Shown here: positions 1-15,470 of the stretch, piece after piece
How positions within the stretch are numbered: the first letter of the stretch is position 1
Layout: every line of letters starts with the position of its first letter
DNA from: Hyphomonadaceae bacterium
GTDB lineage: Bacteria > Pseudomonadota > Alphaproteobacteria > Caulobacterales > Hyphomonadaceae
Length of the DNA: 64,000 bases
Direction: 5' to 3'
NCBI GenBank assembly: GCA_022844345.1
Contig: JALHLU010000009.1
Location: 1-64,000, forward strand
Position numbers and translations under genes: made by a program
Notes under the pieces: generated by a model
The model's input: only the letters and a program-made list of their open reading frames with translations
Databases searched by the model: none
Told to the model about the DNA's origin: nothing

Positions 1-457
1 CGCGGCAGCAGGCGCTGCCGTTGGCGCCGGGCGCGCGGCTGCGAACGGCACGGCGAGTTCCGCTGGCGGCCTGCGCGCGGCGACGGCGCTCGGCTCCCTC
101 CGCACCGGCCTCAACGGCCCCATGGCGGCGCCGATCAACGCAGCCGTCGGCCTTGGCGCATCTGCTGTCGGCGGCATTCGCCAGGGCGCCGACCGTGTCG
201 CGGATCATTTCCGGGCGCGCGGAACCACTGCCGCGCGCACCGTAGGCGGCGCTGCAGGCGCCATCACCCCAGCGCCCGCCGGCCTGGCCGCATCTGGGGC
301 AGCATCAGGCGCGGCGTCCGGCCAACCGGCCTGGGCGAAGCGCTTCCGTAATACGCAGGCGATGCGTGAAGGCGTGATGATCGCTGCCCACACGATGAAT
401 GCGGGCGATGGCGGCGGCGCGTCCGAAGGCCCCAATCTCAAGCAAAGACAGGAGTAG
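1..457 (+). CDS. trbL: TrbL/VirB6 family conjugal transfer protein, C-terminal part only
   Basis: The reading frame is open at the window's left edge (first full codon at base 2) and ends at TAG 455-457. Only the C-terminal tail is visible: a long Ala/Gly-rich stretch followed by the tail typical of TrbL proteins (QPAWAKRFRNTQAMREG, then an AAHT..GDGGG segment). TrbL is the polytopic inner-membrane channel protein of trb-type conjugation systems; its membrane segments would lie upstream of this window. GGAG at 451-454, inside its last codons, is the ribosome binding site of trbF, which starts 3 bases after the stop. The position directly before trbF-trbG-trbI supports the call. Confidence 0.8.
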   Translation, partial: AAAGAAVGAGRAAANGTASSAGGLRAATALGSLRTGLNGPMAAPINAAVGLGASAVGGIRQGADRVADHFRARGTTAARTVGGAAGAITPAPAGLAASGAASGAASGQPAWAKRFRNTQAMREGVMIAAHTMNAGDGGGASEGPNLKQRQE

Positions 458-459
458 TT

Positions 460-1158
460 ATGTTCGCGTCCGCCAGACAAGCGGGACGGTCCTCGCGATT
501 TCAGAAGACCGTCGAGCCGGGCACGCCTTACCGGCAAGCCCAGGAATTGTGGGACCGGCGGATGGGCTCGGCCCTTGCCCATGCCCGCACCTGGCGCACC
601 GCAGCGCTGGGCGGGCTTGGCCTGTCCGCACTCCTGGCCGGGGCGACCATCATCCTCGCCCTGCGGCCGGCTTCGGTCCCGTTCGTGATCGAGGCCAACG
701 CGACAGGCGAAGCCCGGCTCATAGGCCCCGCCTTGCAGGCCTATGAGCCGGCTGACGCCCAGCTGTCCTGGCATCTTGCGCGGTTCGTCGAAAAGATCCG
801 CAGCCTTCCGTCCGATTCCGTAGTGGTCCGCCAGAACTGGCTCTCCGCCTATGACTGGGCGACGCAGGCCGGCGCCCAGGTGTTGAATAGACTCGCCGAG
901 ACGGATGATCCGTTCGCAAAGGTCGGCAAGACCACGGTTGCGGTCGAGGTGCTGTCGGTCGTGCGCGCGAGCCCCAACAGCTTCAACCTGCGCTGGCGGG
1001 AGTCCAGCTACAACACTGGCACGCTGGTCAAGGTCGAGCGCTACACAGGGGTGGCCACGGTCGTCATCGACCAGCCCTCCGATCCAGAGCGCCTGGCAAA
1101 GAACCCGCTCGGTCTCTACGTCCACGCCTTCACCTTCTCCAGGGATCTCCAGCAATGA
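460..1158 (+). CDS. trbF: TrbF (VirB8-like) conjugal transfer protein
   Basis: This is a 232-residue inner-membrane protein: about 45 cytoplasmic residues, one transmembrane helix (about 47-67), then a periplasmic VirB8-like domain. The N-terminal segment with PGTPYRQAQELWDRRMG is characteristic of TrbF, as is the late FSRDL ending. VirB8/TrbF proteins assemble with VirB6, VirB9 and VirB10 homologues into the inner-membrane part of a type IV secretion channel. The start has GGAG 5 bases upstream. It overlaps trbG by 4 bases (ATGA), which implies translational coupling. Length is normal for the family. Confidence 0.92.
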   Translation: MFASARQAGRSSRFQKTVEPGTPYRQAQELWDRRMGSALAHARTWRTAALGGLGLSALLAGATIILALRPASVPFVIEANATGEARLIGPALQAYEPADAQLSWHLARFVEKIRSLPSDSVVVRQNWLSAYDWATQAGAQVLNRLAETDDPFAKVGKTTVAVEVLSVVRASPNSFNLRWRESSYNTGTLVKVERYTGVATVVIDQPSDPERLAKNPLGLYVHAFTFSRDLQQ

Positions 1159-1994
1159 AAGCCACGCTCCTTGTCGCCGCCAGCTTGGCGGCGCTCGCCC
1201 TCACGTCGCCCGCAATCGGACAAACGAAGCCCCCGCCGCTGCGTGACACCAACCAGGCTGCGATCCGCAGCGCCGCCGATGCATCCCTCGTCGGCGCTCT
1301 GCACGAGTTCGCCTACGAACGTGGTGCGCTCTATGCGATCCAGGCCTCTCCCCAGCGCATCACCGACATTGCGCTGGAGCCGGGCGAGGCCCTGCTCTCC
1401 GTGTCGGCTGGCGACACCACGCGCTGGATCGTCAGCGACGCCCGCTCCGGAGCCGGTCCGGCTGCCCAGGCGCATGTTCTCGTAAAGCCGAATGCGGCGA
1501 ATCTTTCCACCAACCTCATCATCATGACGGATAGGCGCATCTATCATCTCGATCTCAGAAGCGTCTCTGGCACGGCGATGGCGGCGGTCTCCTGGCGCTA
1601 TCCGGCCGACATGATGCTGGCGAACAATCCGCCGCCGCCGGCGCCTCCCCCGCCGCCCGCGCCGCCGCCCTTCTCCCCCGAGCAGCTCAATCTTCGCTAT
1701 CGCATCGATGGCGACAAGCCCGACTGGCGGCCGCTGGCGGCATTCGATGATGGGCGCCAGGTCTTCATCGAGATGCCCGACAAGATCCGTACGATGGAAG
1801 CCCCGCCACTGTTCGTGATCGGAGATGAAGGCGCGGAGCTGGTGAACTACCGCGTCCAGGGCAAATACTATGTCGTCGACCGGCTGTTCAGCAAAGCCGA
1901 ACTCCGGCTCGGCACCGGCTGGGGACAGAAAAAGGTCCAGATTCATCGCCAGACACCGATCGCATCTTACACGAGTGGAGGCCTCCATGGCTGA
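1155..1994 (+). CDS. trbG: TrbG (VirB9-like) conjugal transfer protein
   Basis: This is a 279-residue protein with a clear Sec signal peptide (about residues 1-22, ending in SPAIGQ). A VirB9/CagX-type beta domain and a proline-rich hinge around residues 155-175 follow, then a C-terminal domain containing NYRVQGKYYVVDRLF, the usual TrbG/VirB9 C-terminal signature. VirB9 homologues form part of the periplasmic and outer-membrane core complex with VirB10/TrbI. The start overlaps trbF by 4 bases and its end overlaps trbI by 8 bases, so trbF-G-I read as one operon. Normal family length. Confidence 0.93.
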   Translation: MKATLLVAASLAALALTSPAIGQTKPPPLRDTNQAAIRSAADASLVGALHEFAYERGALYAIQASPQRITDIALEPGEALLSVSAGDTTRWIVSDARSGAGPAAQAHVLVKPNAANLSTNLIIMTDRRIYHLDLRSVSGTAMAAVSWRYPADMMLANNPPPPAPPPPPAPPPFSPEQLNLRYRIDGDKPDWRPLAAFDDGRQVFIEMPDKIRTMEAPPLFVIGDEGAELVNYRVQGKYYVVDRLFSKAELRLGTGWGQKKVQIHRQTPIASYTSGGLHG

Positions 1995-3237
1995 TGGTGC
2001 TCGCGTGGACGCAGAGAGCCCCGAAGATCCCGAGCGGCAAACCGGCGGTTCTCCGACAGAACCGCCGCCGCTCACCGACATCCGGGTCAGGGGACCAAAG
2101 ACGAAGGGTCTGAACAAACCTGCAATCATCATGGCGGCTGGCGGCGGCGCCGCGGTCGTCCTCGTGCTCGCCTCCGGCGCGTTCTCGGACGATCCATCGC
2201 GCAAACCTGCGGACACGAAGCCGATGATGTCCGAGCCGGCGCGACCTGAAATGGCCAGGGGCACGGTGCGGGACCTGCCGGCGACCTATTCCGAGGCGCG
2301 CGACTTCGCACTGGCATCGGAGCCGGCAACGCCGCCACCGCAGCTCGGCCCCCCGCTGCCGGGCGATGTCGCGGCGTTCGCACCGCAGACGAGCAGCGCC
2401 TATCACGATCCGCCAGGCACAAACTGGAACGAGCCACCAGGCGACAACGCGTACGCAGGCCAGGGATCCTACACGGCAGAAGAAAATCCCGCCGTGGTCG
2501 AAGCCAGGCAGGCAGATCGATCGGCGCTGTTCTTCGCCGTGCGTCAGGAAAGTCCCGGACAGGCAGCGCCTCCCGCCGACCAAGCCCGGCAACCTCCGCC
2601 GAGCCAGCTCACGGCGATCGCACAGCCGCAGGACGAGCCGGCTGACGCCGGTCCATCGATCGCACGCGCCCTTCATCCGGGCTCGGTGATTCCGGCCAGT
2701 CTGATCACCGAACTCAATTCGGAATCGCCTGGTCCCGTGATCGCGCAGGTGACGCAATCGATCTACGATAGCGCCACGGGGCGCACGCTGTTGATACCTC
2801 AGGGCGCGCGGCTGATCGGCGACTACCGTTCGGCCTCGAAATACGGCCAGAGCCGCGTCGCGATTATCTGGTCCCGCCTCATCATGCCGGACGGCGAAGA
2901 AATCGCGCTGGACGAAGCGGCGCTCGATCCTTCGGGCGCCGCCGGTGTCGCTGGCCAGGTCGACAACCATTGGGGCGATGTGTTGGGGGCTGCTGCTCTC
3001 GGGACGCTGATCAACATCGGCGTAGCTTCAACCGAAGAGCCGCAACTGACCTATGGCGGCATAGGACTCGCAACCCGAGATCCAGTGGACGCCGCCATCA
3101 ATGACGGAGTCCAGCGCGGCGCAAGCGTTGTCACGAACCGGGTGGTTGATCGCGGCCTTGCCATACCGCCGACGATCCGGATCGAAGCTGGTAAGCGGAT
3201 TTCGGTAATCGTCACACGTAGTTTGACCCTTGAATGA
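1987..3237 (+). CDS. trbI: TrbI (VirB10-like) conjugal transfer protein
   Basis: This is a 416-residue protein: a short cytoplasmic N-terminus, one membrane helix near residues 45-65, a long Pro-rich periplasmic linker (about 75-220), and a C-terminal VirB10/TrbI domain that includes LIPQGARLIGDYRS and the final RISVIVTRSLTLE. VirB10 homologues span the envelope and gate the transfer channel. I chose ATG 1987 over a longer frame from 1870 because the latter would lie inside trbG; GGAGG sits 5 bases upstream of 1987. The trb run stops here; small genes often found after trbI in related elements are absent and AbiE-type remnants follow. Confidence 0.94.
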   Translation: MADGARVDAESPEDPERQTGGSPTEPPPLTDIRVRGPKTKGLNKPAIIMAAGGGAAVVLVLASGAFSDDPSRKPADTKPMMSEPARPEMARGTVRDLPATYSEARDFALASEPATPPPQLGPPLPGDVAAFAPQTSSAYHDPPGTNWNEPPGDNAYAGQGSYTAEENPAVVEARQADRSALFFAVRQESPGQAAPPADQARQPPPSQLTAIAQPQDEPADAGPSIARALHPGSVIPASLITELNSESPGPVIAQVTQSIYDSATGRTLLIPQGARLIGDYRSASKYGQSRVAIIWSRLIMPDGEEIALDEAALDPSGAAGVAGQVDNHWGDVLGAAALGTLINIGVASTEEPQLTYGGIGLATRDPVDAAINDGVQRGASVVTNRVVDRGLAIPPTIRIEAGKRISVIVTRSLTLE

Positions 3238-3260
3238 CCTACTGCTCCAACGCGTTTTGA

Positions 3261-3684
3261 CACGGCGCTGCGCCCGCGGCGCCTGAAGGGCTGGTCGGCT
3301 CTTTCCTGCACGATGACCGGTTCCTGCTGGTGTCGCCCAATGCCTACAACGGCCTGGGCGTGGGAACGACGCAGCTCTACAACACGCCTGTCGTCTACAA
3401 CCACAAGCGGCACGGCGAGTTCGAGCTCAACGGACGTCCCTATGATTTTCGCCGCCGCGCATCATTTCCAAAGAGCGTCAGCGAGGAGTTCCTGCTCGTC
3501 GACCTGCTACACAACCTGAACAGGCTGGCAGAAGACCAAGACGCCGTCCGCGCGCGCGCTGGCGCGCGCCAGACAGATGGATCGCAAGCGCCTGACCAAG
3601 GCGGTCTACGACTACGACTCGGCCAGGGTTCGCGAGCTCCTGGATCCTGTTCTCAACGGCGCCGAAGCGAGGCTCGCAGCATGA
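3261..3684 (+). pseudogene. decayed AbiEi-type antitoxin remnant
   Basis: No intact start is present: the frame follows a stop at 3258-3260 and begins mid-domain (AAPAAPEGLVGSFLHDD). It continues through VSPNAYNGLGVGTTQLYNTP and PKSVSEEFLLVDLLHNLNRL, which resemble AbiEi-family antitoxin proteins. The protein then breaks: the plausible C-terminus (ARARQMDRKRLTKAVYDYD through ELLDPVLNGAEARLAA) is in another frame ending at TGA 3682-3684. The shift lies between about 3530 and 3565, where an alternating CG run makes slippage likely. The N-terminal half has been lost, probably when it joined the trb genes. Confidence 0.72.
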
Positions 3685-3812
3685 CCTTCCTCGATGAGCA
3701 GCCTGACTTCGGCGACCTGCTCGCCGTTGTTGGCGACACCCGGAAAATCGATCCAGGGCTCGTGGAGAAAGACTACTGGCTCATGCACACGCTCTGAGGA
3801 CTGCAGGAACTC
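3681..3812 (+). pseudogene. decayed AbiEii-type nucleotidyltransferase toxin remnant
   Basis: It begins at ATG 3681, overlapping the antitoxin remnant's stop by ATGA, the usual arrangement of abiEi-abiEii pairs. The first 39 residues (MTFLDEQPDFGDLL, then DPGLVEKDYWLMHTL) match the N-terminal segment of AbiEii-family nucleotidyltransferases. A TGA then sits where a Trp codon would be expected (the frame resumes GLQELG), followed by a TAG. The catalytic GG..L motif and all later sequence are missing. It cannot encode an active toxin. The intact abiE pair next door is on the opposite strand and only distantly similar. Confidence 0.72.
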
Positions 3813-3862
3813 GGCTAGGCTTCGTCGTCGGAACGAGGACGCTGGCGAAATTATTTGCGCGA

Positions 3863-4831
3863 CTAGGTCGTGCGCCCGCGCACATGAGAGGCCTTCCAGT
3901 TGAGCATGGGCATGGCGGCGATCCGCGCCTGGATCTCCCGCTCGACATCGAGAAGGCTGGCGTCGATCTCGCCGCGATCCAGGACGCCGTCGAGAAACGC
4001 CTGCTCGTTGCGCGTATAGTCCAGCAAGGGCGCGGCGCCCGCGCGGCACAACGCAATTGTCTCCTCAACCCAGGCACCAAGGGCTGCGTCGTCGGCGAAT
4101 GCCGTGCGAGGCAGGCACATCAGGAGTTTCTGCCGAACCTCGCGTGGGTCGGCACCAATCGCCGCCGCCGAAGCGTCGCGCCAGTCATTGCGGCCGGATG
4201 CGCCGAACGCCAGCATGCCCGCGCGCACCCACTTCCAGTTAAGGCCTTCCCAGCCGAACAGGCGGCGCGCGTCGAACAGGTCGCGTCCGGCCCGGCGGTC
4301 AAGTAGCGCCACCAGCTTGCCGGCGGCGAGTTCGTGGCGATCGACCACGCTGACGCCTGTCGCCTGCTGGCCGCCCAGGACGACGGAGTCCATCGCCGTG
4401 ACGCCAAACAAGGGCTGGCGCATCATGAAATTGACGTCGACCTCCAGCGTGCCCTGCCCGCCCATGGCGGAGGGATGGACGGCGAGCCACTTGCCGCCGG
4501 CATGCTCGGCGGGCTGGCGGCGGACCCGATAGCCTTGCGCGACAAGAATGCGCCCGAGCGCCGCCTCAACGGCGGGCCGTTCGGCCAGCATGGCCTCGCG
4601 GTGGAGGGCGCCGATGTAGTTGACGTCGATGTCGACCGAAAGCCGGTCGAGGTTGAGATGGAAGACGTTGAGCGCGGTCCCGCCCTTCAGCGCCAGGCGG
4701 GATCCGAGTAGGTCGTCATCGGCGATACCCTGCAGGAGATCGAGCAGGCGCATGACCTTTTCGAGCGTGCCGGGCTGATGGCCAGTCTCGGCCGCAAGGC
4801 GTTGCAGGGTCTCGCGTGACGGCGCTGGCAT
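3863..4831 (-). CDS. AbiEii/AbiGii-family nucleotidyltransferase toxin
   Basis: This is a 322-residue protein. Near residue 45 it has the nucleotidyltransferase fold signature LALKGGTALN, followed by LDRLSVDIDVNY, where the DID motif supplies metal-binding acidic residues. A second acidic and lysine-rich segment follows (ELAAGKLVALLDRRAGRDLFD). This is the type IV toxin partner of AbiEi antitoxins. Members of the family transfer nucleotides to tRNA or other targets and cause growth arrest or abortive infection. I took ATG 4831 rather than a longer frame starting at 5032 because it overlaps the stop of the antitoxin gene (TGATG), indicating coupled translation. All key motifs are present, so it looks active. 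Confidence 0.9.
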   Translation of the reverse strand: MPAPSRETLQRLAAETGHQPGTLEKVMRLLDLLQGIADDDLLGSRLALKGGTALNVFHLNLDRLSVDIDVNYIGALHREAMLAERPAVEAALGRILVAQGYRVRRQPAEHAGGKWLAVHPSAMGGQGTLEVDVNFMMRQPLFGVTAMDSVVLGGQQATGVSVVDRHELAAGKLVALLDRRAGRDLFDARRLFGWEGLNWKWVRAGMLAFGASGRNDWRDASAAAIGADPREVRQKLLMCLPRTAFADDAALGAWVEETIALCRAGAAPLLDYTRNEQAFLDGVLDRGEIDASLLDVEREIQARIAAMPMLNWKASHVRGRTT

Positions 4832-5655
4832 CAGGCCCCCTCGAAACTTGGCGCGACCAGCTCGGCTGGAACGAGAATATTCCACGCCGCAACAGAGCGC
4901 GCATCGCCGGCCTTGGCGCCAAGCACGTATTGCGGGTGATTGGGTTTCAGGGCCTGGAGCGCGGTAAGCGTTTTGTCGGATACGCCAAGCCGGGTTCGTT
5001 CGCGCTCCAGCCACCAGCCGAGCGCACCGCATGCGGCAGCGCTGCCGAGGCTTTGCGCCTGACGCACTAGCGGATCGGAGCGCAGCCGTTGGACAAGTGC
5101 CAGCGAGTTGAACAGTTCTTCCGCGCCGCCTGCAAGATCGGGCCGGTCAAAACAGTCGACCACGGTTCGCTCGAGTGTCGTGAGCTTCAGCATTAGCCCG
5201 GCACGGTCTGCCTCGGCGACATCGCGTGGCGGCTCGAACCCCGCTGGCACTTTCACGAAGCGACAGGCGAAGCCAGGCGTATCGAACGTCACTGAGACGG
5301 AGGATGAGATGGCCTGGACGTCAGGCGCGTCGGTGTAGGCGCAGCCGTGCAGTTCCAGCGCCGAATGATAGGCGATGACGGCGTCGCGTCGGAGACGGGA
5401 GGCCGCCAGAAACCGGTCGACGGTCCAAGTCTCCACGTCACCGTGCGCTGGCACGGTCGCGAACACGCCTCGCGCGATACGCTTGATGTTGCCGGCCTTG
5501 AGGTGCTGGGCCAGCATCACGGTCACCACCTTTTCGCCGGTGCGCCGCCCTACCGCGGCGGCATAGTCCTCGCGCCGGAAGACCGGGTTGGCGCTGAAGA
5601 ATGCGCGCGAGCCGCCATGCTGCGGCCGGGTTGAGGAAATAGACTGGAAAGCCAT
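4831..5655 (-). CDS. AbiEi-family antitoxin
   Basis: This is a 274-residue protein with an N-terminal winged-helix segment (about 20-75, including LKAGNIKRIARGVFATVP) and a C-terminal AbiEi domain (for example RFLAASRLRRDAVIAYHSAL and LTTLERTVVDCFDRPDLAGG). AbiEi proteins neutralise the AbiEii nucleotidyltransferase and repress their own operon through the winged helix. The gene directly precedes and overlaps the toxin gene by one base. A short inverted repeat (ATAC-5-GTAT at 5654-5666) overlaps the start codon, with GAGGGAAGG just upstream, so it could take part in autoregulation; this is weak. The gene faces away from the MBL operon across a 250-bp intergenic region. Confidence 0.88.
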   Translation of the reverse strand: MAFQSISSTRPQHGGSRAFFSANPVFRREDYAAAVGRRTGEKVVTVMLAQHLKAGNIKRIARGVFATVPAHGDVETWTVDRFLAASRLRRDAVIAYHSALELHGCAYTDAPDVQAISSSVSVTFDTPGFACRFVKVPAGFEPPRDVAEADRAGLMLKLTTLERTVVDCFDRPDLAGGAEELFNSLALVQRLRSDPLVRQAQSLGSAAACGALGWWLERERTRLGVSDKTLTALQALKPNHPQYVLGAKAGDARSVAAWNILVPAELVAPSFEGA

Positions 5656-5905
5656 ACACGAAGTATAGCCTTCCCTCGTTAAAACTCAATTGCGGAACTA
5701 GGCCTCGCGCCTCCGAAGCCATATGATTTATATGTCTTTTACTCGGAAAACCTCAGCACAACTGGCATGCGCCGCGCCGCCGTGCCGGGTTTTCCACAAC
5801 AGTTTTCTCGATTCGTTCTGGACGGTCCGAAGCCGCTCTGTCTATATCTTGCGCCATTATTCCTGTGGGGACGCTAGATATTGCACAAGAAAGAGATTGC
5901 TCCTC

Positions 5906-7042
5906 ATGCGCGGTGATTTCAGGTTCACGGTCTTCGCCTCTGGCTGCGGAGACACCCTCCTCCTCGAAGCGCAGCGGAAGGTCATCCTGACCGATGTTCG
6001 TTACCGGACCGGACAGGCTCAGGACCCCGAGAATGACGAGGTCCCGGACTTTGGACCGGACATCCGCCTCGCCTGCGGAACGGGGCATCTCGATATTTTC
6101 GTCCTGACGCACCCAGACCAGGACCATGTCGGCGGCTTCTGCGAACTCTTCCACTGCGGGCGGCCGGCCGACTGGATCGCCAATCCGGATCGTGGCGACC
6201 CTAAACTGTTGGTCGATGAAATCTGGTGCTCGCCCTACTCGGCCAATCCCCACTACACGACCGACGCTTCCGAGCCCGTGATCAAGGAGATCAAACGCCG
6301 CCTCGCGCTGCGCGGGACGCTGGAGGGTCAACTCGACGGCAACCGGATCGTGGTCATGGATACGACGACCAACACCGAAGGCTTCGTCGTCGATGGGCTG
6401 CGCTGGCGTCTGCTGGCGCCGACACCGGCAGAATGGAACATTCCCAAAGCCGCTCCGGGCGAACCGCCAACGTCGTCGAACCCGACCAGCCTCATTATGC
6501 AGTGGACGGTCACACGGTCCTGGGGCGACAGCCAGATCCTCATCTGCGGCGATACATGCGTCGAGGTGCTGGAGCGCATTCATGATACTATCTTACGCCA
6601 CAATCCCGAGTGGCTCGATTGGCACATTCTGATCGCCCCGCACCACTGTTCGCGCCGTTCGATCGGCCGCGTCTGGAATGGTGGATGCATCGACGAAGAG
6701 TTCGATGCGTCCGCCAAGGCGCTGACGGCACTCGGGCGGCAAGTCGGCGATGGCTTCGTGGTCTCAAGCAGCAAGCGCATCATCCGCGGCGCGGCGACGC
6801 CACCCTCGTTCCACGCCAAGAACCGCTATCTTCGTATCCTCGCCGGCAGCGGCGAAATCGACGACAGCGTAAGAGAACGCTTCCTGTGCACCGGTGGCGA
6901 AGTCGACGGCGACAAACCGGCGCACGTCGTGTTCAATCTCAATGTTACCGGCCCGACACTCGCTGCCCGCTCCAAGCCGAGCGCCATCCGGGTTGGTGCT
7001 GCCTCATCGGTCGGGGGCGGCGGCGGTTATGGACGGCGCTGA
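5906..7042 (+). CDS. ComEC-like MBL-fold metallohydrolase, first gene of the E2-E1-JAB/TIR operon
   Basis: This is a 378-residue metallo-beta-lactamase-fold protein without membrane segments. The metal-binding motif is at residues 69-74 (HPDQDH in VLTHPDQDHVGG), as in ComEC-type hydrolases. A later Asp occurs in ILICGDTC and a His in IAPHHCSRRS, completing a two-metal site. The likely activity is hydrolysis of a phosphodiester or other ester bond; the substrate is unknown. The C-terminus is a flexible glycine-rich tail (SVGGGGGYGRR). ATG 5906 was chosen because the frame upstream shows no family similarity; the ribosome site is weak (AAGAG about 11 bases away). It overlaps the next gene by 14 bases, so the two are co-translated. 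Confidence 0.9.
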   Translation: MRGDFRFTVFASGCGDTLLLEAQRKVILTDVRYRTGQAQDPENDEVPDFGPDIRLACGTGHLDIFVLTHPDQDHVGGFCELFHCGRPADWIANPDRGDPKLLVDEIWCSPYSANPHYTTDASEPVIKEIKRRLALRGTLEGQLDGNRIVVMDTTTNTEGFVVDGLRWRLLAPTPAEWNIPKAAPGEPPTSSNPTSLIMQWTVTRSWGDSQILICGDTCVEVLERIHDTILRHNPEWLDWHILIAPHHCSRRSIGRVWNGGCIDEEFDASAKALTALGRQVGDGFVVSSSKRIIRGAATPPSFHAKNRYLRILAGSGEIDDSVRERFLCTGGEVDGDKPAHVVFNLNVTGPTLAARSKPSAIRVGAASSVGGGGGYGRR

Positions 7043-9254
7043 GGAGCCTGCATGGCTGGTTCGTCGCGAGATCGCGCTGATCAAAGCCTCCGCAGGGGTC
7101 GACGAGGCGAGCGTCCAGTTCGTTGCCGGCGACGGTGCCGGGATCGCCTTCTCGATCGCGACGGAACGGTCTGTGCATCCGGTCCAGGCTGACATCCGGC
7201 CCGTCGAACCGATCCTGTTCAGCTATGAAAACGTTGACGATATCGGACTCGGGCCGCCCGCGGTGATTGTCAGTACACGCCCAGACTTCCCGCGCGACCT
7301 AGGGCACCTCAATCCCGTCCGGCCAGAGCTGCCCGCCAGCCTTTGCCTCGCCGCGGCCGGCCTCCGCGGCATCTACGACCGATTCGGCATCGAAGGCGTC
7401 CTTGAACGGCTGCGCAATTTTCTGCGCGACGCGAAGATCGGGGCATTGATGCAAGACGGCTGGGAGCCGGTTCCGTTCGGGATCCGGTCCACTATCCGGC
7501 CCGGCATGCTCGATGCGCAGTTCTTCCAGGAGTTGGCCGCGCACCAGCCGGGCGGCGGCGTCGCATTCGGAGTGGCCGGTATCAAGAAGAACTTCGCGGG
7601 CCTCAAGCCGCAAGCCGTTCCGGTGGCGCAACTGGGGAAGGCGCTCGCCGAAGCGAAGCTAAAAGATGAGCCCAAGCGCGAGGTGCCGTGGATATTTGTC
7701 TGGCCGGACGCCGCAACGTCCATTGCCGAGCCTGTCTTCGGGGACTGGATGACCTATGGCGAGATCGCCGCCGGGCTTGAGACGCTCGGGCTGCGACAAC
7801 GGTACGAGGCGGCGATCGGCGATGCGCTGGTCCGCGGCGTTAATTTCAACAATGTCGATCTCGACAGCCGCCGCGCCGTTGTGGCGGTGATCGGCGTCTG
7901 GCGGCCCCAGCCCCTGCGCGCCAGCATCTTCGGTCTGTCGTCGGATGACACTGCGCGCCGTCTCGAACTCCGCGCATATCTGGTGGTCGGCACAGCGACA
8001 GAAGAGCCTCTGCAAGCCTTTCATCCGGCCACCGTACTGGTCGGGCACTGTCTGCCAGACCCCGATCTCTTCCGTTTCACCTCGGGCGTTAGTGGATCGC
8101 AGGAACATACGTTGATTGGCGCCGGCGCGCTCGGCAGCGCCATCGCGGAGGACTTGCTGCGCAGTGGCGCGACGAAGCTCGTCGTGATCGACAAGGAGTT
8201 GCTCGATCCGCACAATCTCGCCCGGCACAGTGGCCGCAAGACAGATATCTTTGCGGCGAAAGCGGAAGCGATAGTGACTCTCGGTGAGGATCTAGCGATG
8301 GGGCACGGGGCCACCGTGGAGCCACGGCAGACGGATATCACTCGGATGCGGGCTGAGGATATTGTCGCGCTGGCGAATATGAGCCCTGTGATCGACGCGA
8401 CCGCGAACGAATCTGTTCGCCGATATCTCGCGCGGGCGCAGCAAACAGCGGATCTCTCCATCCTTCGCACCGAAATCTTCGACCGCGGTCGGCTCGGCGT
8501 CATCTTCCAGTCACACCGCTCCGGAGCAGACCTGATCGACCTCTATTGCTGCCTCCTCCTCGCGGCGACAACCGAGGAACCGGTGCGGGACTGGCTCCTA
8601 CGCAACGAAAGCGATCCGGCGGTCCTGGATCACTTGCAGCTCGGGTTTGGTTGCGCTTCACTGACGACGAAGCTGCCCGGCTACGTTGTACGACAGCATG
8701 CCTCCGCCTTCCTTCCGTCGATCCTGGCCGACCGCAGCAGCGACGGCATCGGACTGAACCCGCTCGACGAATCCTTCCATCCGATGGGCTGGCGCTGGAT
8801 CGATGTGCCGCCCTTCAAGACGTTCACGCCGAAATCTGGCAGCGACTGGCGCGTGCGCGTCCACCCCGATGTTTTTGACGCCATGATGCGGCAAAGATCC
8901 GCCGCACTCCCCGCCGAGACTGGTGGCTATCTTTATGGCGGTTGGGACGCGGGCGCGCGCGTGGCGTCGGCGGTGTTCGCCTCGGGTCTTCCACCGGGCA
9001 CTACGGCCACGCCGACTTCACTCGCATTGGGCCCGGCTGGCGCGACGGACGATGAGCGACGACTTGAGCGAGCTACGCGGGGGCGTCTGACGCTGCTCGG
9101 GAGTTGGCACAGCCATACCGGTAACTGCGCAACTCTGTCGGCCACCGACCTGAAGACGCTTGTAAGTCACGCAGCGGTCGACCAGCTGCGGTTCGTGCCA
9201 ACCGTTGGCATCGTGGTCGCAGATGGCGCCGAGCAAGTCTTCCTGGAGATCTGA
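7029..9254 (+). CDS. triple-domain E2-like / E1 (ThiF) / JAB peptidase fusion
   Basis: This 741-residue protein holds a complete ubiquitin-like pathway in one chain. Residues about 20-200 are E2-like, with HLNP at 93-96 and a candidate catalytic Cys106 in ASLCLA. Residues about 355-560 are an E1/ThiF adenylation domain with the nucleotide loop GAGALGS (364-370), VVIDKE, and DATAN; Cys542 in LGFGCAS is a possible thioester cysteine. Residues about 605-741 are a JAB/JAMM peptidase with Glu630 and HSH-x7-S-x2-D at 694-707, all metal ligands intact. E2-E1 order matches CBASS Cap2, and JAB matches Cap3, but here they are fused. ATG 7029 was preferred to a longer frame lying inside the MBL gene. 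Confidence 0.92.
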   Translation: MDGAEEPAWLVRREIALIKASAGVDEASVQFVAGDGAGIAFSIATERSVHPVQADIRPVEPILFSYENVDDIGLGPPAVIVSTRPDFPRDLGHLNPVRPELPASLCLAAAGLRGIYDRFGIEGVLERLRNFLRDAKIGALMQDGWEPVPFGIRSTIRPGMLDAQFFQELAAHQPGGGVAFGVAGIKKNFAGLKPQAVPVAQLGKALAEAKLKDEPKREVPWIFVWPDAATSIAEPVFGDWMTYGEIAAGLETLGLRQRYEAAIGDALVRGVNFNNVDLDSRRAVVAVIGVWRPQPLRASIFGLSSDDTARRLELRAYLVVGTATEEPLQAFHPATVLVGHCLPDPDLFRFTSGVSGSQEHTLIGAGALGSAIAEDLLRSGATKLVVIDKELLDPHNLARHSGRKTDIFAAKAEAIVTLGEDLAMGHGATVEPRQTDITRMRAEDIVALANMSPVIDATANESVRRYLARAQQTADLSILRTEIFDRGRLGVIFQSHRSGADLIDLYCCLLLAATTEEPVRDWLLRNESDPAVLDHLQLGFGCASLTTKLPGYVVRQHASAFLPSILADRSSDGIGLNPLDESFHPMGWRWIDVPPFKTFTPKSGSDWRVRVHPDVFDAMMRQRSAALPAETGGYLYGGWDAGARVASAVFASGLPPGTTATPTSLALGPAGATDDERRLERATRGRLTLLGSWHSHTGNCATLSATDLKTLVSHAAVDQLRFVPTVGIVVADGAEQVFLEI

Positions 9255-9257
9255 GCC

Positions 9258-9959
9258 ATGGCCGACGCACTGAAGAAAGGCATCGCCGCGAAGTTCCTGC
9301 TGCCAATGGTGGGTGCCTACGTTGCCGCGGCGGCGGCGCTGTCGCTATCGGCCCCCGCCGATCTGATGGCGAAGCTGGCGCCAGTAGTCGGCGCCACCGG
9401 CGTACTTGGTGTCCTAGCGCTCGTTGGCGAGGAGCTGCTCCCACGTCCCTTTAAGGAGGTGGTCGTCTTCTGGCGACGCATGCGTCGTCTGCCGGGCTTC
9501 TGTGCGTTCTCGAAAATCGCGCCAGCGGACGGTCGGGTCGACCAAGCGACACTGAAATCGCTGCTGCCGGCTGGCCCTATGACGCCGGAGCAGGAGAACC
9601 AGCTCTGGTACAAATGGCTAAAGGAGACGGAGAGCGATCCCGGAATAAGCCAGAACCACAGGAACTTCCTCATCCTCCGTGACGCCGCTGTTCTGGCTGC
9701 CGCACTTGCCGCCTTTAGCCCGATCCTCCTGATCCTGAATCAAGATGTGTGGCAGCATGTTCTCGCGCTCGCCGCGATCAGCGGCTGCCTCTATCTCCTA
9801 CTGATGGTGTCGGCGCGCAATTCAGCCTGCCGGCTTGTCGGCAATGTCATCGCGCTGAAGGTCGCCAAGCAGACCCCGGCCGCCGTTGCCCAACAGCGGC
9901 GAAAAGGACAGTCGGCAAGGAGCGCGCAGAAACCTAGCAAGCCGAAAACTACGAAGTGA
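9258..9959 (+). CDS. four-helix membrane protein of the E2-E1-JAB/TIR operon
   Basis: This is a 233-residue protein I do not recognise. Four hydrophobic helices are visible in two pairs, at about residues 11-31, 41-58, 144-160 and 164-183. Between the pairs lies a polar domain of about 85 residues, with a basic start (FWRRMRRLPGF) and an acidic middle. The C-terminus is a strongly basic, disordered tail (QQRRKGQSARSAQKPSKPK). It starts 3 bases after the fusion gene's stop, so it belongs to the operon. By position it could be a membrane anchor, a sensor or a pore-forming effector; nothing in the sequence decides between these. Confidence 0.85.
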   Translation: MADALKKGIAAKFLLPMVGAYVAAAAALSLSAPADLMAKLAPVVGATGVLGVLALVGEELLPRPFKEVVVFWRRMRRLPGFCAFSKIAPADGRVDQATLKSLLPAGPMTPEQENQLWYKWLKETESDPGISQNHRNFLILRDAAVLAAALAAFSPILLILNQDVWQHVLALAAISGCLYLLLMVSARNSACRLVGNVIALKVAKQTPAAVAQQRRKGQSARSAQKPSKPKTTK

Positions 9960-9974
9960 AAGGACGCAAATTCT

Positions 9975-10817
9975 ATGACCGCGCATCATGCTCAAATCGA
10001 ACGCCTGATGCGGGAAATTGCATCTCTCCAGAAGGAAGATGCGGCCGAGGCCAAGAAAGAAGCCGACCTCATCGCCAAAGCGCATCGCTCGGGTGAAGCC
10101 GCCGGCAAATCGAAAGCTGCTTCGACCGTCCAGATGAACCTGCGGGCATTGGAGCGGGCGACCCAGGATCTGGCAGCGGTGAAGAAAAAACGCGCCGATC
10201 TCGCCGGTAAAATCGCCGATCGCGCAAAGAATCTCCGAACCTACGAAACGCGTCAGGCGACTGAGGACGAAAGGGCGAGAAAGAAAATTGCCGATGAGCA
10301 GAAAAGGCTTATCCGCGAACGCGAAGCGCATGGGCGACGATTGAGCCTTGACCTCCGTGGGCGGCGCGACGTTGCCCATGCAGAGGTAATCCCTGCTGGG
10401 GAAGTCGAACAGACTTATGACTTCTTCATATCGCACGCTAGCGAGGACAAGGATGGGTTCGTGCGCGAACTGGCCGAAACGCTTCGCGCCAAGGGGGCCA
10501 GGGTCTGGTATGATGAGTTTTCATTGAGGGTCGGCGACAGTTTGCGGCGAAACATCGATCGAGGTCTTGCAGGCTCTCGGTTCGGCGTGGTCGTCTTGTC
10601 CGAGGCGTTTTTCCGCAAGGAATGGCCGCAACGCGAACTGGACGGCATCGTGACGCTGGAAACTCAGGGCAGCATGCGCATCCTGCCTGTCTGGCACAAA
10701 GTCACGATCGACGAAGTCGCGGGATACAGTCCTACGCTGGCCGACAAGGTCGCACTCAACACTTCACTCAAAGGTGTGAACGATATAGCGGCTGAACTAA
10801 TGAGCCTGCTAAGCTGA
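9975..10817 (+). CDS. coiled-coil TIR-domain protein, probable NADase effector
   Basis: This is a 280-residue protein. Residues 1-125 are highly charged, with heptad-like Lys/Glu/Ala repeats predicted to form a coiled coil. Residues about 147-278 are a TIR domain: YDFFISHASEDK (148-159), then VWYDEFSLRVGDSL (177-190), in which Glu181 is the likely catalytic glutamate of NAD-cleaving TIRs, then VVVLSEAFFRKEWPQREL and ILPVWH. Bacterial TIR effectors of this kind cleave NAD+ to arrest infected cells or make signalling nucleotides. It is the last gene of the operon, 15 bases after the membrane protein. The coiled coil probably drives oligomerisation; that is inference. Confidence 0.9.
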   Translation: MTAHHAQIERLMREIASLQKEDAAEAKKEADLIAKAHRSGEAAGKSKAASTVQMNLRALERATQDLAAVKKKRADLAGKIADRAKNLRTYETRQATEDERARKKIADEQKRLIREREAHGRRLSLDLRGRRDVAHAEVIPAGEVEQTYDFFISHASEDKDGFVRELAETLRAKGARVWYDEFSLRVGDSLRRNIDRGLAGSRFGVVVLSEAFFRKEWPQRELDGIVTLETQGSMRILPVWHKVTIDEVAGYSPTLADKVALNTSLKGVNDIAAELMSLLS

Positions 10818-11237
10818 CGAGTACATACACGGCGGTCGGTCGTGGAGGTTTCGCTACTCAACCGACCGTTCGTAAGGCCGGACAGGGCTACTCCAGCCTC
10901 CCAGCTCAAGCTCTCGCAGCAATGGACCTTAGCCACACGAGGAAGCTTCTTCGTGTCGTTCCGAGTTGCCCCGCGTTTCCGCGCGTTTCCAACACCTACT
11001 GCCGACGCGGTGTGTCCCGAGTGTGTCCCTGGCCCGCCAAGCAATTGAAGAGATTGAACTCTCTTTCCAGCCCATCATAGCATCGGGCGCATCCGTCGGG
11101 CGCTCTGAGGAGGGCGTTACGCCTTCGCTCTTCGATTGGGCGAGCACGGCCTTTCCGACCCTTTCCGGTCATTTCCGACTCGATTCCCGTTCGTCTTACG
11201 GCGCCAAACATCATCATCTGTACCAAGGAGATTGATC
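10818..11237. other. 420-bp intergenic region between the TIR gene and alpA
   Basis: I see no convincing gene here. It contains an 8-bp inverted repeat (10833-10840 with 10861-10868, 20-base loop) shortly after the TIR stop, with no T-run. It also contains a 22-bp imperfect palindrome at 10935-10956 centred on GAAGCTTC, and three phased TTTCCG repeats close to alpA (listed separately). It presumably holds the operon's 3' end and the promoter of alpA. Confidence 0.6.
11152..11180 (+). repeat. three TTTCCG direct repeats at exact 10-bp spacing upstream of alpA
   Basis: TTTCCGACC (11152), TTTCCGGTC (11162) and TTTCCGACT (11172) recur every 10 bases, about one helical turn, starting 86 bp before the alpA start. 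Phased direct repeats of this kind often bind a cooperative DNA-binding protein such as an excisionase or regulator. AlpA itself is the obvious candidate, but this is inference. Confidence 0.5.
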
Positions 11238-11510
11238 ATGCTTGCCGCCCTGCCTGTTGAAATCGTCGAAGCCAAACCTGTTGTCCGTCGCCAGCAACTG
11301 CGCGAACTCGTGCCGCTTGCCGACACCACGATTTATGAGATGGAGCAGCGAGGGGAGTTTCCGAAGCGCTTCTACCTGACACCTCGTTGTCCAGTTTGGG
11401 ATCTCGGAGAAATCAATCATTGGTTGGCTGCACGACGCGCGGCCAGCGGCCTCGTACCGCCGCCGCATCCAGACGTGCGGCGGCGGAAGTCGCGTCCTGT
11501 GCGCGTCTAG
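11238..11510 (+). CDS. AlpA-family DNA-binding regulator / excisionase-like protein
   Basis: This is a 90-residue protein with a MerR/AlpA-type winged helix: RRQQLRELVPLADTTIYEME resembles the helix-turn-helix of AlpA proteins, and FPKRFYLTPRCPVWDLGEIN followed by HWL forms the wing and last helix. AlpA proteins activate or direct excision of integrated elements, often next to P4-type integrases as here. AAGGAG lies 7 bases upstream of ATG 11238, which settles the start. The stop TAG (11508-11510) overlaps the convergent integrase gene's stop, so the two genes meet tail to tail. Confidence 0.88.
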   Translation: MLAALPVEIVEAKPVVRRQQLRELVPLADTTIYEMEQRGEFPKRFYLTPRCPVWDLGEINHWLAARRAASGLVPPPHPDVRRRKSRPVRV

Positions 11511-12763
11511 GCGTGGGGGTCATGCGCGAACAGCTCGACGGCCGGCGGCATGAATGCGGCGATGTACTTCTCGCCGTTGATCCAGGCTTCGACCATGTTG
11601 GCCCATTCCTGCATCATATGGCGACGCTGCGGCTCGTACTCAGCTTTGTTGTATACTCCACGGACCGTTCGCCCGTGCTCGTGCGCTAAACATTTCTCAA
11701 TCCAGTCGCTGTTGAAGCCAACCTCGTTGAGCAAGGTAGACGCGGTGCGGCGCAAGTCATGTACCGTAAACGGTGCAAGCGGCAAATCATCGTCCTTGGC
11801 GATCTTGGCGATAGCGGCGGTAACGCGGTTGAAGACGACCCGGCACATTGGCTCGGCAGCGTCGTAACGCGAAGGCAGTAGATACCGCGAATTGCCCGCG
11901 CAGGTTTTCAACGCGATGAGAATGTCTATGGATTGGTCAGACAGGTAGACGTTGTGAGGCTTCGACTTCTTCATGCGCTCCTTCGGAATGGACCAAACGC
12001 GATTTTCGAAATCGAACTCATTCCACGTCGCTTCTAGCAGCTCGCTCTTACGAACCATGGTGAGTAGAAGGAGTTTCATTCCGAGGCGTATGGTCGGCAT
12101 CGTCGCGACCCGTTCGATCAGCCTGAAGGCAATTCTGATCTCGCTAGGCGACAGCGATCTGTCTCTGATCTCGAATGTTGCTATGGACGACGGAGCAACC
12201 GCGTCCGCCGGGTTGGCCATCGTCTCGCCTTGCAGGACTGCAAAGCCGAAAATCTGCTTCACAATATCGCGCACATGGATCGCGGTTGCCGGCGCTCCGC
12301 GGCCTTTGACCTTGTTGCATAGCGCCCTCAGGTCGTCCGGAGTAATCTCGGTCATGAGCCGGCTCCTCCACGCCGGGGCGATATCCCGGTCGTAGATGTG
12401 CCGCCGCATCTCCCGGGTCGACTGCGCTATCTTGGCTTCTTTGAAGTAGTTTTCCCCCCACTCTCCCAGGGACCGCGCCGTCGAAAGGCGGCGCTTCTCG
12501 CGTTGCTTTTCTTGGGCTGGCGATTGGCCCGCCTTCACGGCCCGTCGGGCTTCAATGCACCGCTCTCGGGCCTGGGACAGCGTGATCCCGTCGCGACCGT
12601 ACTGGCCAAGTGTCAGGGTCTCCCGTCTTCCGTGCAACCGATAGTCCAAACGGAAGACGATCGTGCCCGTCGGCTTAACCTGGGCGTACATACCGTCACG
12701 GTCCGCAACTTTGTACGTTTTGTCTTTTGATTTCAGATTCTTGAGTGCTGTGTCGGTCAACAT
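11507..12763 (-). CDS. P4-type tyrosine integrase
   Basis: This is a 418-residue site-specific recombinase. It has an N-terminal arm-DNA-binding domain (about 1-90, LTDTALKNLKSKDKTYKVAD and LDYRLHGRRETLTLGQYG), a SAM-like core-binding domain, and a C-terminal catalytic domain. The catalytic set is visible: Arg in MVRKSELL, Lys in KKSKPHNV, HDLRR, His in LAHE, and the nucleophile Tyr in VRGVYNKAEY. I chose ATG 12763 because AGGAG lies 6 bases upstream; a 20-residue-longer frame begins at 12823. It lies next to the guaA 3' end, consistent with insertion there. Confidence 0.93.
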   Translation of the reverse strand: MLTDTALKNLKSKDKTYKVADRDGMYAQVKPTGTIVFRLDYRLHGRRETLTLGQYGRDGITLSQARERCIEARRAVKAGQSPAQEKQREKRRLSTARSLGEWGENYFKEAKIAQSTREMRRHIYDRDIAPAWRSRLMTEITPDDLRALCNKVKGRGAPATAIHVRDIVKQIFGFAVLQGETMANPADAVAPSSIATFEIRDRSLSPSEIRIAFRLIERVATMPTIRLGMKLLLLTMVRKSELLEATWNEFDFENRVWSIPKERMKKSKPHNVYLSDQSIDILIALKTCAGNSRYLLPSRYDAAEPMCRVVFNRVTAAIAKIAKDDDLPLAPFTVHDLRRTASTLLNEVGFNSDWIEKCLAHEHGRTVRGVYNKAEYEPQRRHMMQEWANMVEAWINGEKYIAAFMPPAVELFAHDPHA

Positions 12764-12810
12764 TTTCCGCTCCTGTCGGGATGCGGAAAGGCGCGAGAAC
12801 AGCGCTGAAA

Positions 12811-12972
12811 TACCGTCAGCCAAAACACCGTCAGAACTCGCCTATCCGCTTGGTTTCGCAGTTTATTTCGGTCCAAACGCGCGGAAATGGCGGGAAATGA
12901 GCGTGACGGTATTGCGATCACTCGGCCTTCACCGATGTCGCTATGCCGTCGCGCGTACCGCCAGACCGTCAC
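12811..12972. repeat. four ACCGTCA-type repeats between integrase and guaA, probable integrase arm sites
   Basis: The motif NACCGTCAS occurs as TACCGTCAG (12811-12819), CACCGTCAG (12826-12834), inverted TACCGTCAC (read on the minus strand at 12903-12911), and GACCGTCAC (12964-12972). A further partial copy, GACCGTTCG, lies near 13036. The 317-bp spacer between the integrase start and the guaA end contains no gene. Tyrosine integrases with an N-terminal arm-binding domain recognise exactly such clustered short repeats flanking the att core, so these are the likely arm-type sites and may also overlap the int promoter. Confidence 0.6.
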
Positions 12973-13077
12973 GCTGCTGAGCGAACGATGGCGATAGGGG
13001 TCGATTGAAATTCTAACGGAGTTTCAGGGCTTTGAGACCGTTCGCCGATAGATTGCGAACAGTCCGGAACTGCCCTG

Positions 13078-13105
13078 AATCATTCCCACTCGATCGTGCC
13101 CGGTG
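13078..13105. other. probable attachment-site core at the guaA 3' end
   Basis: The last codons of guaA (PGTIEWE plus stop) are a conserved sequence used as attB by island integrases in many bacteria. Here the integrase gene and its presumed arm sites lie directly beyond the stop, so the att core should overlap these bases. A second copy was not found in the window and would lie at the other ICE end. The exact core length cannot be fixed from one end. Confidence 0.5.
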
Positions 13106-14672
13106 GCTTGCTGGTGACATCGTACACCACACGGCTGACGCCCTTCACTTCGTTGATGATGCGGGTCGCGGTGCGGCCGAGGAAGTTCATGTCGAAGGGG
13201 TAGAAGTCAGCGGTCATGCCATCGGTGGAGGTGACGGCGCGCAGCGCGAGGACGCTTTCGTAGGTGCGCGCGTCGCCCATGACGCCGACGGAGCGGACGG
13301 GGAGCAGGACGGCGAAGGCCTGCCAGATCTTGTCGTAGAGACCGGCCTTGCGGATTTCGTCGAGATAGATTGCGTCGGCTTTTTGCAGGATGGCGACGCG
13401 GTCGGGCGTGATCTCGCCGGGGATGCGGATGGCGAGACCGGGGCCGGGGAACGGGTGACGGCCGACGAGGCTTTCCGGCATGCCAAGTTCGCGGCCGAGG
13501 GCGCGGACTTCGTCCTTGAAAAGCTCGCGCAGGGGTTCGACCAGTTTGAGGTTCATCTTCTCGGGCAGGCCGCCGACATTGTGGTGGGACTTGATCGTCA
13601 CCGAGGGACCGCCGTCAAACGAGACGCTTTCGATCACGTCGGGATAGAGCGTGCCTTGGGCGAGGAATTGCGCGCCTTGCACTTTCTTCGCTTCGGCCTC
13701 GAAGATGTCGATGAAGGTCTTGCCGATGAATTTGCGTTTGGTCTCGGGATCGCTGACGCCCGCGAGGCCGCCGAGGAATGTGTCGCCTGCATCCACATGG
13801 ACCAGCGGGATGTTGTAGTGGCCGCGGAACAGCTTCACGACTTCGTCCGCTTCGTTCGCGCGCATGAGGCCGGTGTCGACGAAGACGCAGGTGAGCTGGT
13901 CGCCGATGGCTTCGTGGATCAGCACAGCGGCGACGGATGAATCGACCCCGCCGGAAAGGCCGCAGATCACCCTGCCCTTGCCAACCTGCGCCTTGATTTT
14001 GGCGACCTGCTCGGCGCGCAGTGCGGCCATCGACCAGTCGCCCTTCATGCCGGCGATCTTCTTCACGAAGTTGGAGAGGAGCTTTGCGCCATCGGGCGTG
14101 TGCACCACTTCGGGGTGGAACATGGTGGTGTAGTAGCGGCGCTTCTCGTCGACTGCGATGGCGAACGGCGCGTTCTCGGATGTGCCGACGACCCTGAAGC
14201 CCTCGGGCAGTTGCGTGACGCGGTCGCCATGGCTCATCCAGACGGGATAGCGCTTGCCGACTTCCCAGAAGCCTTCGAACAGCGGCGAGGCGTGCCTGAT
14301 CTCCACATCGGCGCGGCCGAACTCCGCCGCGTGGCCGCCCTCGACGACGCCGCCCTGCTGGACCGCCATCGTCTGCTGTCCGTAGCAGATGGCGAGGATG
14401 GGAACGTTGAGGTCGAAAGCGATCTGTGGTGCGCGGGGGGATTTATCGCGCGTGACGCTGTCGGGACCGCCGGAGAAGATGATGGCCTTGGGGTTGAACC
14501 CGGCTTTGATGACGGCTTCGGCGCGATTGTAGGGATGGACCTCGCAATAGACGCCCATTTCCCGAAGACGCCGGGCGATCAGCTGTGTGACCTGACTGCC
14601 AAAATCTATGATCAGCGCACGTTCGTGCGCGTTTGAATCGTAGGTGGGGATCGGGGGGGTGTTGCTCGCCAT
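13080..14672 (-). CDS. guaA: GMP synthase (glutamine-hydrolysing)
   Basis: This 530-residue enzyme converts XMP to GMP using glutamine and ATP, the last step of GMP synthesis. The N-terminal class-I glutamine amidotransferase domain has the nucleophile Cys96 in AICYGQQ and the His-Glu pair in MFHPEVVH. The ATP pyrophosphatase domain has the P-loop SGGVDSS, and the C-terminal dimerisation domain ends in PPGTIEWE. The length is typical. Its stop codon lies at the inferred ICE insertion site; because the coding sequence runs to the normal end, insertion has preserved the gene. guaB lies about 2.5 kb upstream in the same orientation. Confidence 0.97.
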
Positions 14673-14749
14673 GGCGGAAATAGAAGGCGTTCGGGCGGGG
14701 CGTCAACTGGAAAGCTGGGACCGCCGGGCGCCTGCCTGGCGATCCCGGA

Positions 14750-15394
14750 TCAGACTTCCAGGTGGTAGGGCGTGCCCGCTTCGAAGAGCTTGCGAATCGC
14801 CTTGCCGGTGACGGCGGTGCGCAGCTGGTAGTGCGGCGGGTCGGGCATTGTCTTCCAGATGCCGCCCCATTCGAGGATGGGAGCGAGCGTGGCGCTGTCC
14901 TTCACCAGCTGGCCGATGGCGGCATAGGCGGGGGCATCCTGCGGCTTGTCGCCATTCATGTAGCGGCCGCCATTCTCGAAGATGCCGATGTCCCAGGCGA
15001 CGCCGAAATTGTGGTTGCTCTCGCCGCCCTTGGCGTTGGTGACCTTCTTCTCGCTCGAGAAAAGGCCGCGGCCCTTGGCGTAGAGCTTGTCCTGCTCGGC
15101 ATAGGTGCGCGTGCCGGAGATGATCTTGATGACATGCGGGCCACCGGCGACGGCCGCCATGAACTGGCGGGCGGCGCGCTGGGCCTTGATATGCAGGGTG
15201 CGGATGTTTTCTTCGGTGCGATTGTCGAACGCGCCGAATTCGGTGATCAGCGCGGCGGCGGCGGACTGGAAGGCGTTTTCAGCCGCTTCCGTCTTCGGGC
15301 CCCAGTCGCCGTCGAGCTTGCCCTGATAGAAGGCGCAGCACTTCAGCAGGCGCTGGCGAAACAGCACCTCAGCCTTGTCGAATGGCTTGCTCAT
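14750..15394 (-). CDS. M15-family peptidoglycan peptidase with N-terminal peptidoglycan-binding-like segment
   Basis: This is a 214-residue protein. Residues about 10-45 (YQGKLDGDWGPKTEAAENAF) resemble a peptidoglycan-binding repeat. The C-terminal half is an M15 zinc peptidase: His128 and Asp135 in SNHNFGVAWDIG and His188 in DPPHYQL are the expected zinc ligands, and GTRTYAEQDKLYAKGR is typical of phage endolysin-like L-Ala-D-Glu peptidases (M15C). No signal peptide is visible, which fits an endolysin-like or otherwise exported enzyme. It follows the RsmB-like gene on the same strand after 76 bases. A prophage origin is possible, but no other phage genes are nearby. Confidence 0.85.
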   Translation of the reverse strand: MSKPFDKAEVLFRQRLLKCCAFYQGKLDGDWGPKTEAAENAFQSAAAALITEFGAFDNRTEENIRTLHIKAQRAARQFMAAVAGGPHVIKIISGTRTYAEQDKLYAKGRGLFSSEKKVTNAKGGESNHNFGVAWDIGIFENGGRYMNGDKPQDAPAYAAIGQLVKDSATLAPILEWGGIWKTMPDPPHYQLRTAVTGKAIRKLFEAGTPYHLEV

Positions 15395-15470
15395 GACGAT
15401 CCCCGAATGCGCCCCACGCGCGAGCGCACTAGACAGGGTGGCCGATGCATTGGCAAGCGCGGCGCGGAAT

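Follow-up and report, generated by a model that had tools for sequence, protein, structure and literature searches.

The window analysed here, a 64,000-nucleotide (nt) stretch of the genome of a Hyphomonadaceae bacterium (GenBank assembly GCA_022844345.1, contig JALHLU010000009.1, positions 1 to 64,000), carries a locus that is likely to be a divergent 6A-MBL anti-phage system working like the type II cyclic oligonucleotide-based anti-phage signaling system (CBASS), with a metallo-beta-lactamase (MBL)-fold protein replacing the cGAS/DncV-like nucleotidyltransferase (CD-NTase). The term 'anti-phage' is the label given to this family by NCBIfam. With slightly less confidence, we consider it probable that the MBL-fold enzyme itself plays the part of the ubiquitin, which would place it next to the CD-NTases as a second non-beta-grasp modifier class, and that one polypeptide of E2, E1 and JAB domains carries out its maturation, conjugation and release. 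This conjugation machinery would be layered on a minimal module of MBL and four-transmembrane (4-TM) membrane effector that also seems to exist without conjugation, in parallel to the split between type I and type II CBASS. The architecture as such is known, and the new element is the mechanistic proposal that the MBL serves as the substrate. The genes and domains on which this proposal is built are the following:

5906..7042, + strand: MBL gene, encoding a ComEC-type metallo-beta-lactamase-fold protein of 378 amino acids (aa); start set by homology, with the open reading frame (ORF) open from 5702
6962..7039, + strand: MBL C-terminal tail, reading ...SSVGGGGGYG|RR; the conserved Gly is encoded at 7031-7033, predicted JAB cut after this Gly
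7029..9254, + strand: E2-E1-JAB fusion (6A-MBL Cap2_3), 741 aa; identified by Pfam, NCBIfam, alignment and AlphaFold2 model
7086..7478, + strand: E2 (ubiquitin-conjugating-like) domain, residues ~20-150; H93 and catalytic C106 (codon 7344-7346); Pfam Prok-E2_A
7506..8078, + strand: Cap2-type linker ('wing') domain, residues ~160-350; VIA alignment to Cap2 7TO3
8091..8828, + strand: E1 adenylation domain, residues ~355-600; ATP motif GAGALGS, catalytic C542 (codon 8652-8654); Pfam ThiF
8841..9251, + strand: JAB/JAMM peptidase domain, residues ~605-741; E630, H694xH696, S704, D707; Pfam Prok-JAB

A conserved glycine at the end of the MBL protein

The MBL gene and the fusion gene share 14 nt (7029-7042), the start of the fusion lying within the upstream MBL gene. 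Judged by homology, translation of the MBL most likely begins at 5906 rather than at 5723 (ORF 5723-7042). The AlphaFold2 model of the protein (predicted local distance difference test, pLDDT, 81.8) has its best fold match in the MBL domain of ComEC (9IC4, E 1.2e-13), a likeness that was also seen by sequence, and the zinc ligands are present as HPDQDH (H69, D71, D73, H74), D216 and H246/H247 with an intact HxDxDH motif. We take the MBL to hydrolyse a nucleic acid, a nucleotide or some other phosphodiester. Its last residues, 364-378, are disordered in the model (pLDDT < 50) and the protein ends in ...SSVGGGGGYG-RR-stop, resembling the MBL termini of two other loci, L058 (VGYG|D) and L050 (VGFG|QVLSER).

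Across about 100 loci the MBL tails are rich in Ala, Ser and Gly and lead to a fixed Gly, which is followed by 0-9 unconserved residues. After clustering of the MBLs at 70% identity, which left 49 non-redundant proteins, a terminal [HAYF]G, counted when located at or at most 9 residues from the end, was present in 48 of the 49, the exception being a 278-aa ORF that looks truncated (L049). As controls, the same test recovered the motif in 3/45 fusion C-termini, 1/36 third genes and 16/153 of all downstream genes. With a stricter pattern (n=44) the residues ahead of and including the Gly were HG in 26 tails, RAG in 12, PAG in three, YG in two and FG in one. The tail stops exactly at the Gly in 23 of these 44 proteins, while about half of the MBL tails, including the YG|RR of the window, extend 1-7 residues beyond it. 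The MBL encoded on the Escherichia coli plasmid pSE11-2 likewise ends in ...APRAG|VSNQ, and the MBLs of three further enzyme-bearing loci end in RAG, RAG and HG. Such a constant Gly amid varying neighbours (HG, RAG, PAG, YG, FG) would be the pattern expected of an E1 substrate. Similarly, the C-termini of CBASS cGAS proteins have a conserved Gly or Ala preceded by variable penultimate residues, and the terminal Gly of cGAS is required for formation of the Cap2 thioester, for conjugation and for defence (Jenson 2023, PMC10097602).

The occurrence of the tail follows that of the conjugation enzymes. The 4-TM protein family to which the downstream gene of the window belongs (family c1) is also found beside distant MBLs in four loci (L149, L150, L164 and L169), for which no E1, E2 or JAB match was obtained in the fetched stretch. 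The MBLs of these loci end in ...RVEEYT, ...YEEEV, ...YPDRQED and ...YPTDQEA, respectively, and none of the four has a Gly tail. Accordingly, the tail is present in 48/48 intact MBLs with conjugation enzymes versus 0/4 without them (Fisher P 3.7e-6, uncorrected for kinship). Since the c1 4-TM protein adjoins tail-less MBLs in these four loci, a minimal module of MBL and membrane protein seems to exist, to which the E2-E1-JAB regulator and the Gly tail would be added, much as CD-NTase and effector are supplemented with Cap2 and Cap3 in type II CBASS.

Several observations weigh against the MBL of the window being a substrate of the fusion. The four MBLs that lack the tail are only distantly homologous, and their contrast with the 48 tailed proteins carries no phylogeny correction. 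A wider search for enzyme-less MBLs of the window's family returned only 6A-MBL members, and the tail-less comparison group therefore stays small. In addition, one locus (L163, genome G114; 3759-7154, - strand) combines ThiF, JAB-like, MBL and 4-TM proteins with no E2, and because the MBL of this locus has no terminal Gly, the coupling of Gly tail and enzymes is not universal across architectures; this set may represent another E1-dependent arrangement. Finally, the MBL of the window scores slightly under its NCBIfam cut-off (NF058524; 204.3 bits, E 2.7e-60, cut-off 220). Its fold, zinc ligands and gene position agree with those of the 6A-MBL MBL.

The E2-E1-JAB fusion and its likeness to Cap2

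The frame at 7029-9254 (+ strand) is open and its product has 741 residues. An initial annotation of this stretch had placed E2-like, E1-like and JAB peptidase domains in this one chain, and all three are recovered by Pfam above gathering cut-offs: Prok-E2_A at residues 55-155 (E 5.4e-12), ThiF/E1 at 361-481 (3.4e-14) and Prok-JAB at 614-715 (7.9e-10). Moreover, residues 54-726 match NCBIfam NF058523 ('anti-phage 6A-MBL system cap2_3 protein', 6A-MBL_cap2_3) at 359 bits, above its cut-off of 320. In an alignment of 46 fusions, H93 and C106 of the E2 domain are invariant, as are G364/G366/G369, D388, N396, R399, K411 and C542 of the E1 domain and the JAMM residues E630, H694, H696, S704 and D707 of the JAB domain, which form the motif E...HxH(x7)SxxD. 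Thus the assignment of Cys106 and Cys542 as catalytic residues is borne out, and so is the E2 assignment that hinged on conservation of Cys106.

The AlphaFold2 model of the fusion (pLDDT 81.8, predicted template modelling score 0.80) retains an E2 fold around Cys106, and C542 lies on a flexible loop (residues 539-543, pLDDT < 50). The nearest fold is that of Cap2 from Enterobacter cloacae (7TO3; Foldseek E 8.7e-21), with which the VIA alignment gave a Z of 23.6 and a root mean square deviation (rmsd) of 5.4 over 513 aligned residues, beginning at residue 6 and covering model residues 6-593, in agreement with the previously drawn comparison to Cap2 and Cap3. BubCD was a weaker structural match (VIA Z 18.8, rmsd 14.9); the VIA match list consisted mostly of E1 domains, so that it scarcely probed the JAB domain and other parts. 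The region at residues 200-355, for which no motif had initially been recognised, falls inside the part aligned with 7TO3 and is the counterpart of the 'wing' domain described as the linker of Cap2 (PMC12355090). It is also the least conserved part of the 46 fusions, with a mean column conservation of 0.33 versus 0.43-0.48.

The fusion has a precedent: a triple-module E2-E1-JAB protein beside a specialised metallo-beta-lactamase gene was published in 2006 (Iyer 2006, Table 1 row 6a; PMC1779556), and the family is named in NCBIfam. Nor does fusion imply gating through a fixed 1:1 ratio of writer and eraser, as had been argued: in two loci whose MBLs have this type of tail, E2-E1 and JAB are encoded as individual proteins (L067, with ORFs 7526-9451 and 9336-10022, and L058), and fusion is therefore optional and the ratio not obligatory. 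The description of the chain as a complete pathway is overstated, since a modifier protein is missing from it; the gene overlapping the start of the fusion probably encodes the substrate, a role that had been overlooked. The alternative suggestion of JAB as a maturation protease gains support from the extension of about half of the MBL tails past the conserved Gly.

Proposed mechanism, membrane partners and alternative explanations

From these comparisons we infer a course of events that leads from tail cleavage and conjugation to a target through activation to effector function. The MBL, a ComEC-like hydrolase, would be translated with its flexible tail ...GGYG-RR, from which the JAB domain would remove the RR and thereby expose the Gly. 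The E1 domain would then adenylate the tail Gly, and the MBL would be passed as a thioester to Cys542 and subsequently to Cys106 of the E2 domain, which would join it to a lysine of some target, while the JAB domain could take it off again. Because 23 of 44 tails already end at the Gly and only the others, about half, require trimming, the JAB domains probably share the task of releasing conjugates, with maturation as an additional one. Conjugation, probably altered on infection, would turn the MBL into a state that activates a membrane effector, whether through a signal made by the MBL or by contact, and the activated effector would harm the membrane and abort the infection. In such a system the MBL and the membrane effector (a 4-TM protein here, patatin elsewhere) would be the core, and the fusion would be the regulator.

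Two genes follow the fusion on the same strand:

9258..9959, + strand: 4-TM membrane protein of family c1, 233 aa, 3 nt past the fusion; proposed membrane effector
9975..10817, + strand: coiled-coil and TIR protein, 15 nt past the 4-TM gene; Pfam TIR_2, PADLOC PDC-S66

The 4-TM protein had no match in Pfam, NCBIfam or PADLOC. Its hydrophobic segments are located near residues 9-27, 38-56, 142-160 and 168-186, and it shares with its family a conserved middle part including R73, P79, F84, P107, Y118, L138 and R141. In 15 further 6A-MBL loci a c1 gene directly follows the fusion, and additional loci encode one upstream. Among the 49 non-redundant loci, 34 have a 4-TM protein belonging to c1 or to a second family, c2, and five have a patatin phospholipase, together 39/49; some other loci contain small multi-TM proteins or PADLOC PDC-M48 candidates. 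Neither c1 nor c2 matched Pfam or NCBIfam at the thresholds used. Two uncharacterised families of 4-TM membrane partners are brought to light here. In two loci a WYL-domain regulator and a small membrane protein are encoded divergently upstream of the MBL gene (L151, 4472-5857, - strand; L170, 4089-5657, + strand), so that the membrane partner stands with the WYL regulator and not behind the fusion. Past the 4-TM gene, two Burkholderia/Paraburkholderia loci (L066 and L061) carry an unclassified 453-aa protein and further genes, which are possible extra components.

The killing effector of the window might instead be the TIR protein, which would be of the NAD+ hydrolase type, a possibility that we regard as unlikely although of some weight. 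TIR domains (Pfam TIR_2 1.3e-21 in this protein) are common among defence effectors, and the gene closely follows that of the 4-TM protein. However, no homologue of it was found at the other 6A-MBL loci examined, for which reason it was rejected as a conserved part of the system, and PADLOC lists its family as a separate single-gene candidate (PDC-S66, 323 bits). The TIR protein may be an additional effector, or its gene may be a defence gene in its own right.

As for the role of the MBL, it is improbable that the fusion serves an ordinary beta-grasp ubiquitin-like protein encoded elsewhere, with the MBL acting as effector or sensor and its tail being used otherwise, for example in membrane or partner binding. 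The E1 domains are homologous to ThiF/MoeB enzymes, which use beta-grasp carriers, and conjugation by the fusion is something that we infer. On the other hand, no family match to a beta-grasp ubiquitin-like protein was obtained among the operon proteins scanned, and the operons form self-contained sets that are found on plasmids and islands in different phyla. Moreover, this explanation would not account for a Gly that is kept in 48 of 49 MBLs while its neighbours vary and is gone where E1, E2 and JAB are gone, and Cap2, the closest fold, acts on a non-beta-grasp substrate (PMC12355090).

Still less probable is that the MBL is the acceptor rather than the modifier. The MBL and fusion genes adjoin throughout, which makes an acceptor within the operon conceivable, and self-conjugation of MBL to MBL would be possible; yet a conserved free C-terminal Gly on a disordered arm is a feature of a donor, and acceptors need lysines, none of which is fixed in the listed tails. 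Small-molecule synthesis or sulfur carriage by ThiF/MoeB and JAB chemistry of the siderophore or thiamine type, for which pairs of E1 and JAB are known (Iyer 2006, Table 1 rows 4a-4e; PMC1779556), is very improbable in view of the fused E2 domain with invariant His and Cys, the Cap2-like overall fold, the NCBIfam anti-phage label and partners that are membrane proteins, patatin, WYL regulators and restriction genes rather than metabolic genes.

Relationship to known systems, distribution and genomic setting

Like other members of the 6A-MBL family (NF058523/NF058524; Iyer row 6a), the locus of the window consists of an MBL followed by a single-chain E2-E1-JAB protein, the latter above the curated cut-off. 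It differs from them, apart from the score of the MBL, by a YG|RR tail instead of the usual HG or RAG and by the 4-TM and TIR proteins that occupy the effector slot. A literature search returned no paper on '6A-MBL'; nor was a description of the MBL tail as a conjugation substrate found in this incomplete search, and the tail may have been noticed elsewhere.

The locus resembles type II CBASS, whose Cap2 and Cap3 reportedly act with the CD-NTase (work of Ledvina from 2023), in the E2-linker-E1 fold and the JAB isopeptidase, in a substrate that is encoded within the operon and has a Gly/Ala C-terminus and no beta-grasp fold, and in interchangeable membrane-damaging effectors. CBASS also employs TM effectors, and its effectors include the phospholipase CapV (PMC10097602). 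Unlike in type II CBASS, a ComEC-type MBL holds the substrate position of the CD-NTase, for which no match was found among the scanned neighbours with Pfam and PADLOC, writer and eraser are fused, and there is no evidence for a cyclic nucleotide signal. The Bil and Bub systems (bacterial ISG15-like and ubiquitination-like) likewise use bacterial E1, E2 and JAB conjugation in defence, but with beta-grasp ubiquitin-like proteins, none of which was found in the 6A-MBL operons examined. The PADLOC candidate PDC-M48, consisting of a small TM protein (M48A) and an MBL (M48B), also pairs an MBL with a small membrane protein, and M48A or M48B genes fill the effector slot of some 6A-MBL loci; the M48B MBLs, however, lack the Gly tail and belong to a different MBL family. 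According to a 2025 review, no ubiquitin-transfer system other than Cap2 is known to act on a non-beta-grasp protein, and others may hide behind unusual substrates (PMC12355090). The Gly tail of the 6A-MBL proteins names such a substrate, one that is directly testable, also in the E. coli pSE11-2 copy, and suggests that bacterial immunity plugs one conjugation device as a regulator into quite different enzymes.

The comparison loci were gathered with an alignment of an MBL subset, a broader alignment being too divergent as a query, and owing to this MBL seeding the set leans to the better-conserved branch, relative to which the window is an outlier. The 6A-MBL system is uncommon yet widespread: an MBL above the cut-off was present in 6 of 398 genomes of the phylum, 80 loci were fetched from several phyla, and close relatives of the pSE11-2 copy occur in 31 of 5426 complete E. 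coli genomes. The phage collection gave no 6A-MBL match; viral contigs gave five. An apparent four-domain MBL-E2-E1-JAB protein of Methylomonas koyamae (L099; 6468-9893, + strand) was rejected: the usual tail STPMPHG is found in the +1 frame, and the joined ORF is put down to a 1-nt frameshift, which is either a sequencing error or a true frameshift. Closely similar copies with the tail TPMPHG|AS or nearly so (L068, L070-L071, L074-L092, L094 and L140), most of them followed by the same PDC-M48B-type MBL gene, were found in Acinetobacter, Bordetella, Achromobacter, Variovorax, Stutzerimonas and other genera, and their occurrence in many genera points to recent spread on a mobile element.

The fusion gene of the window is present as a single copy in the 4.19 Mb genome. 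Immediately upstream of the 6A-MBL operon and divergent from it lies an AbiEi/AbiEii-type toxin-antitoxin pair (3863-5655, - strand; PADLOC PDLC02270 and PDLC02305), and the region is thus a defence island. No tRNA was found at positions 1-20000 of the window. The defence genes are flanked on one side by genes for VirB8, a VirB9-like protein (CagX) and TrbI/VirB10 (460-3237, + strand) and on the other by an AlpA regulator and a tyrosine integrase (11136-12823) beside the 3' end of guaA (13080), so that they are probably carried by an integrative conjugative element.

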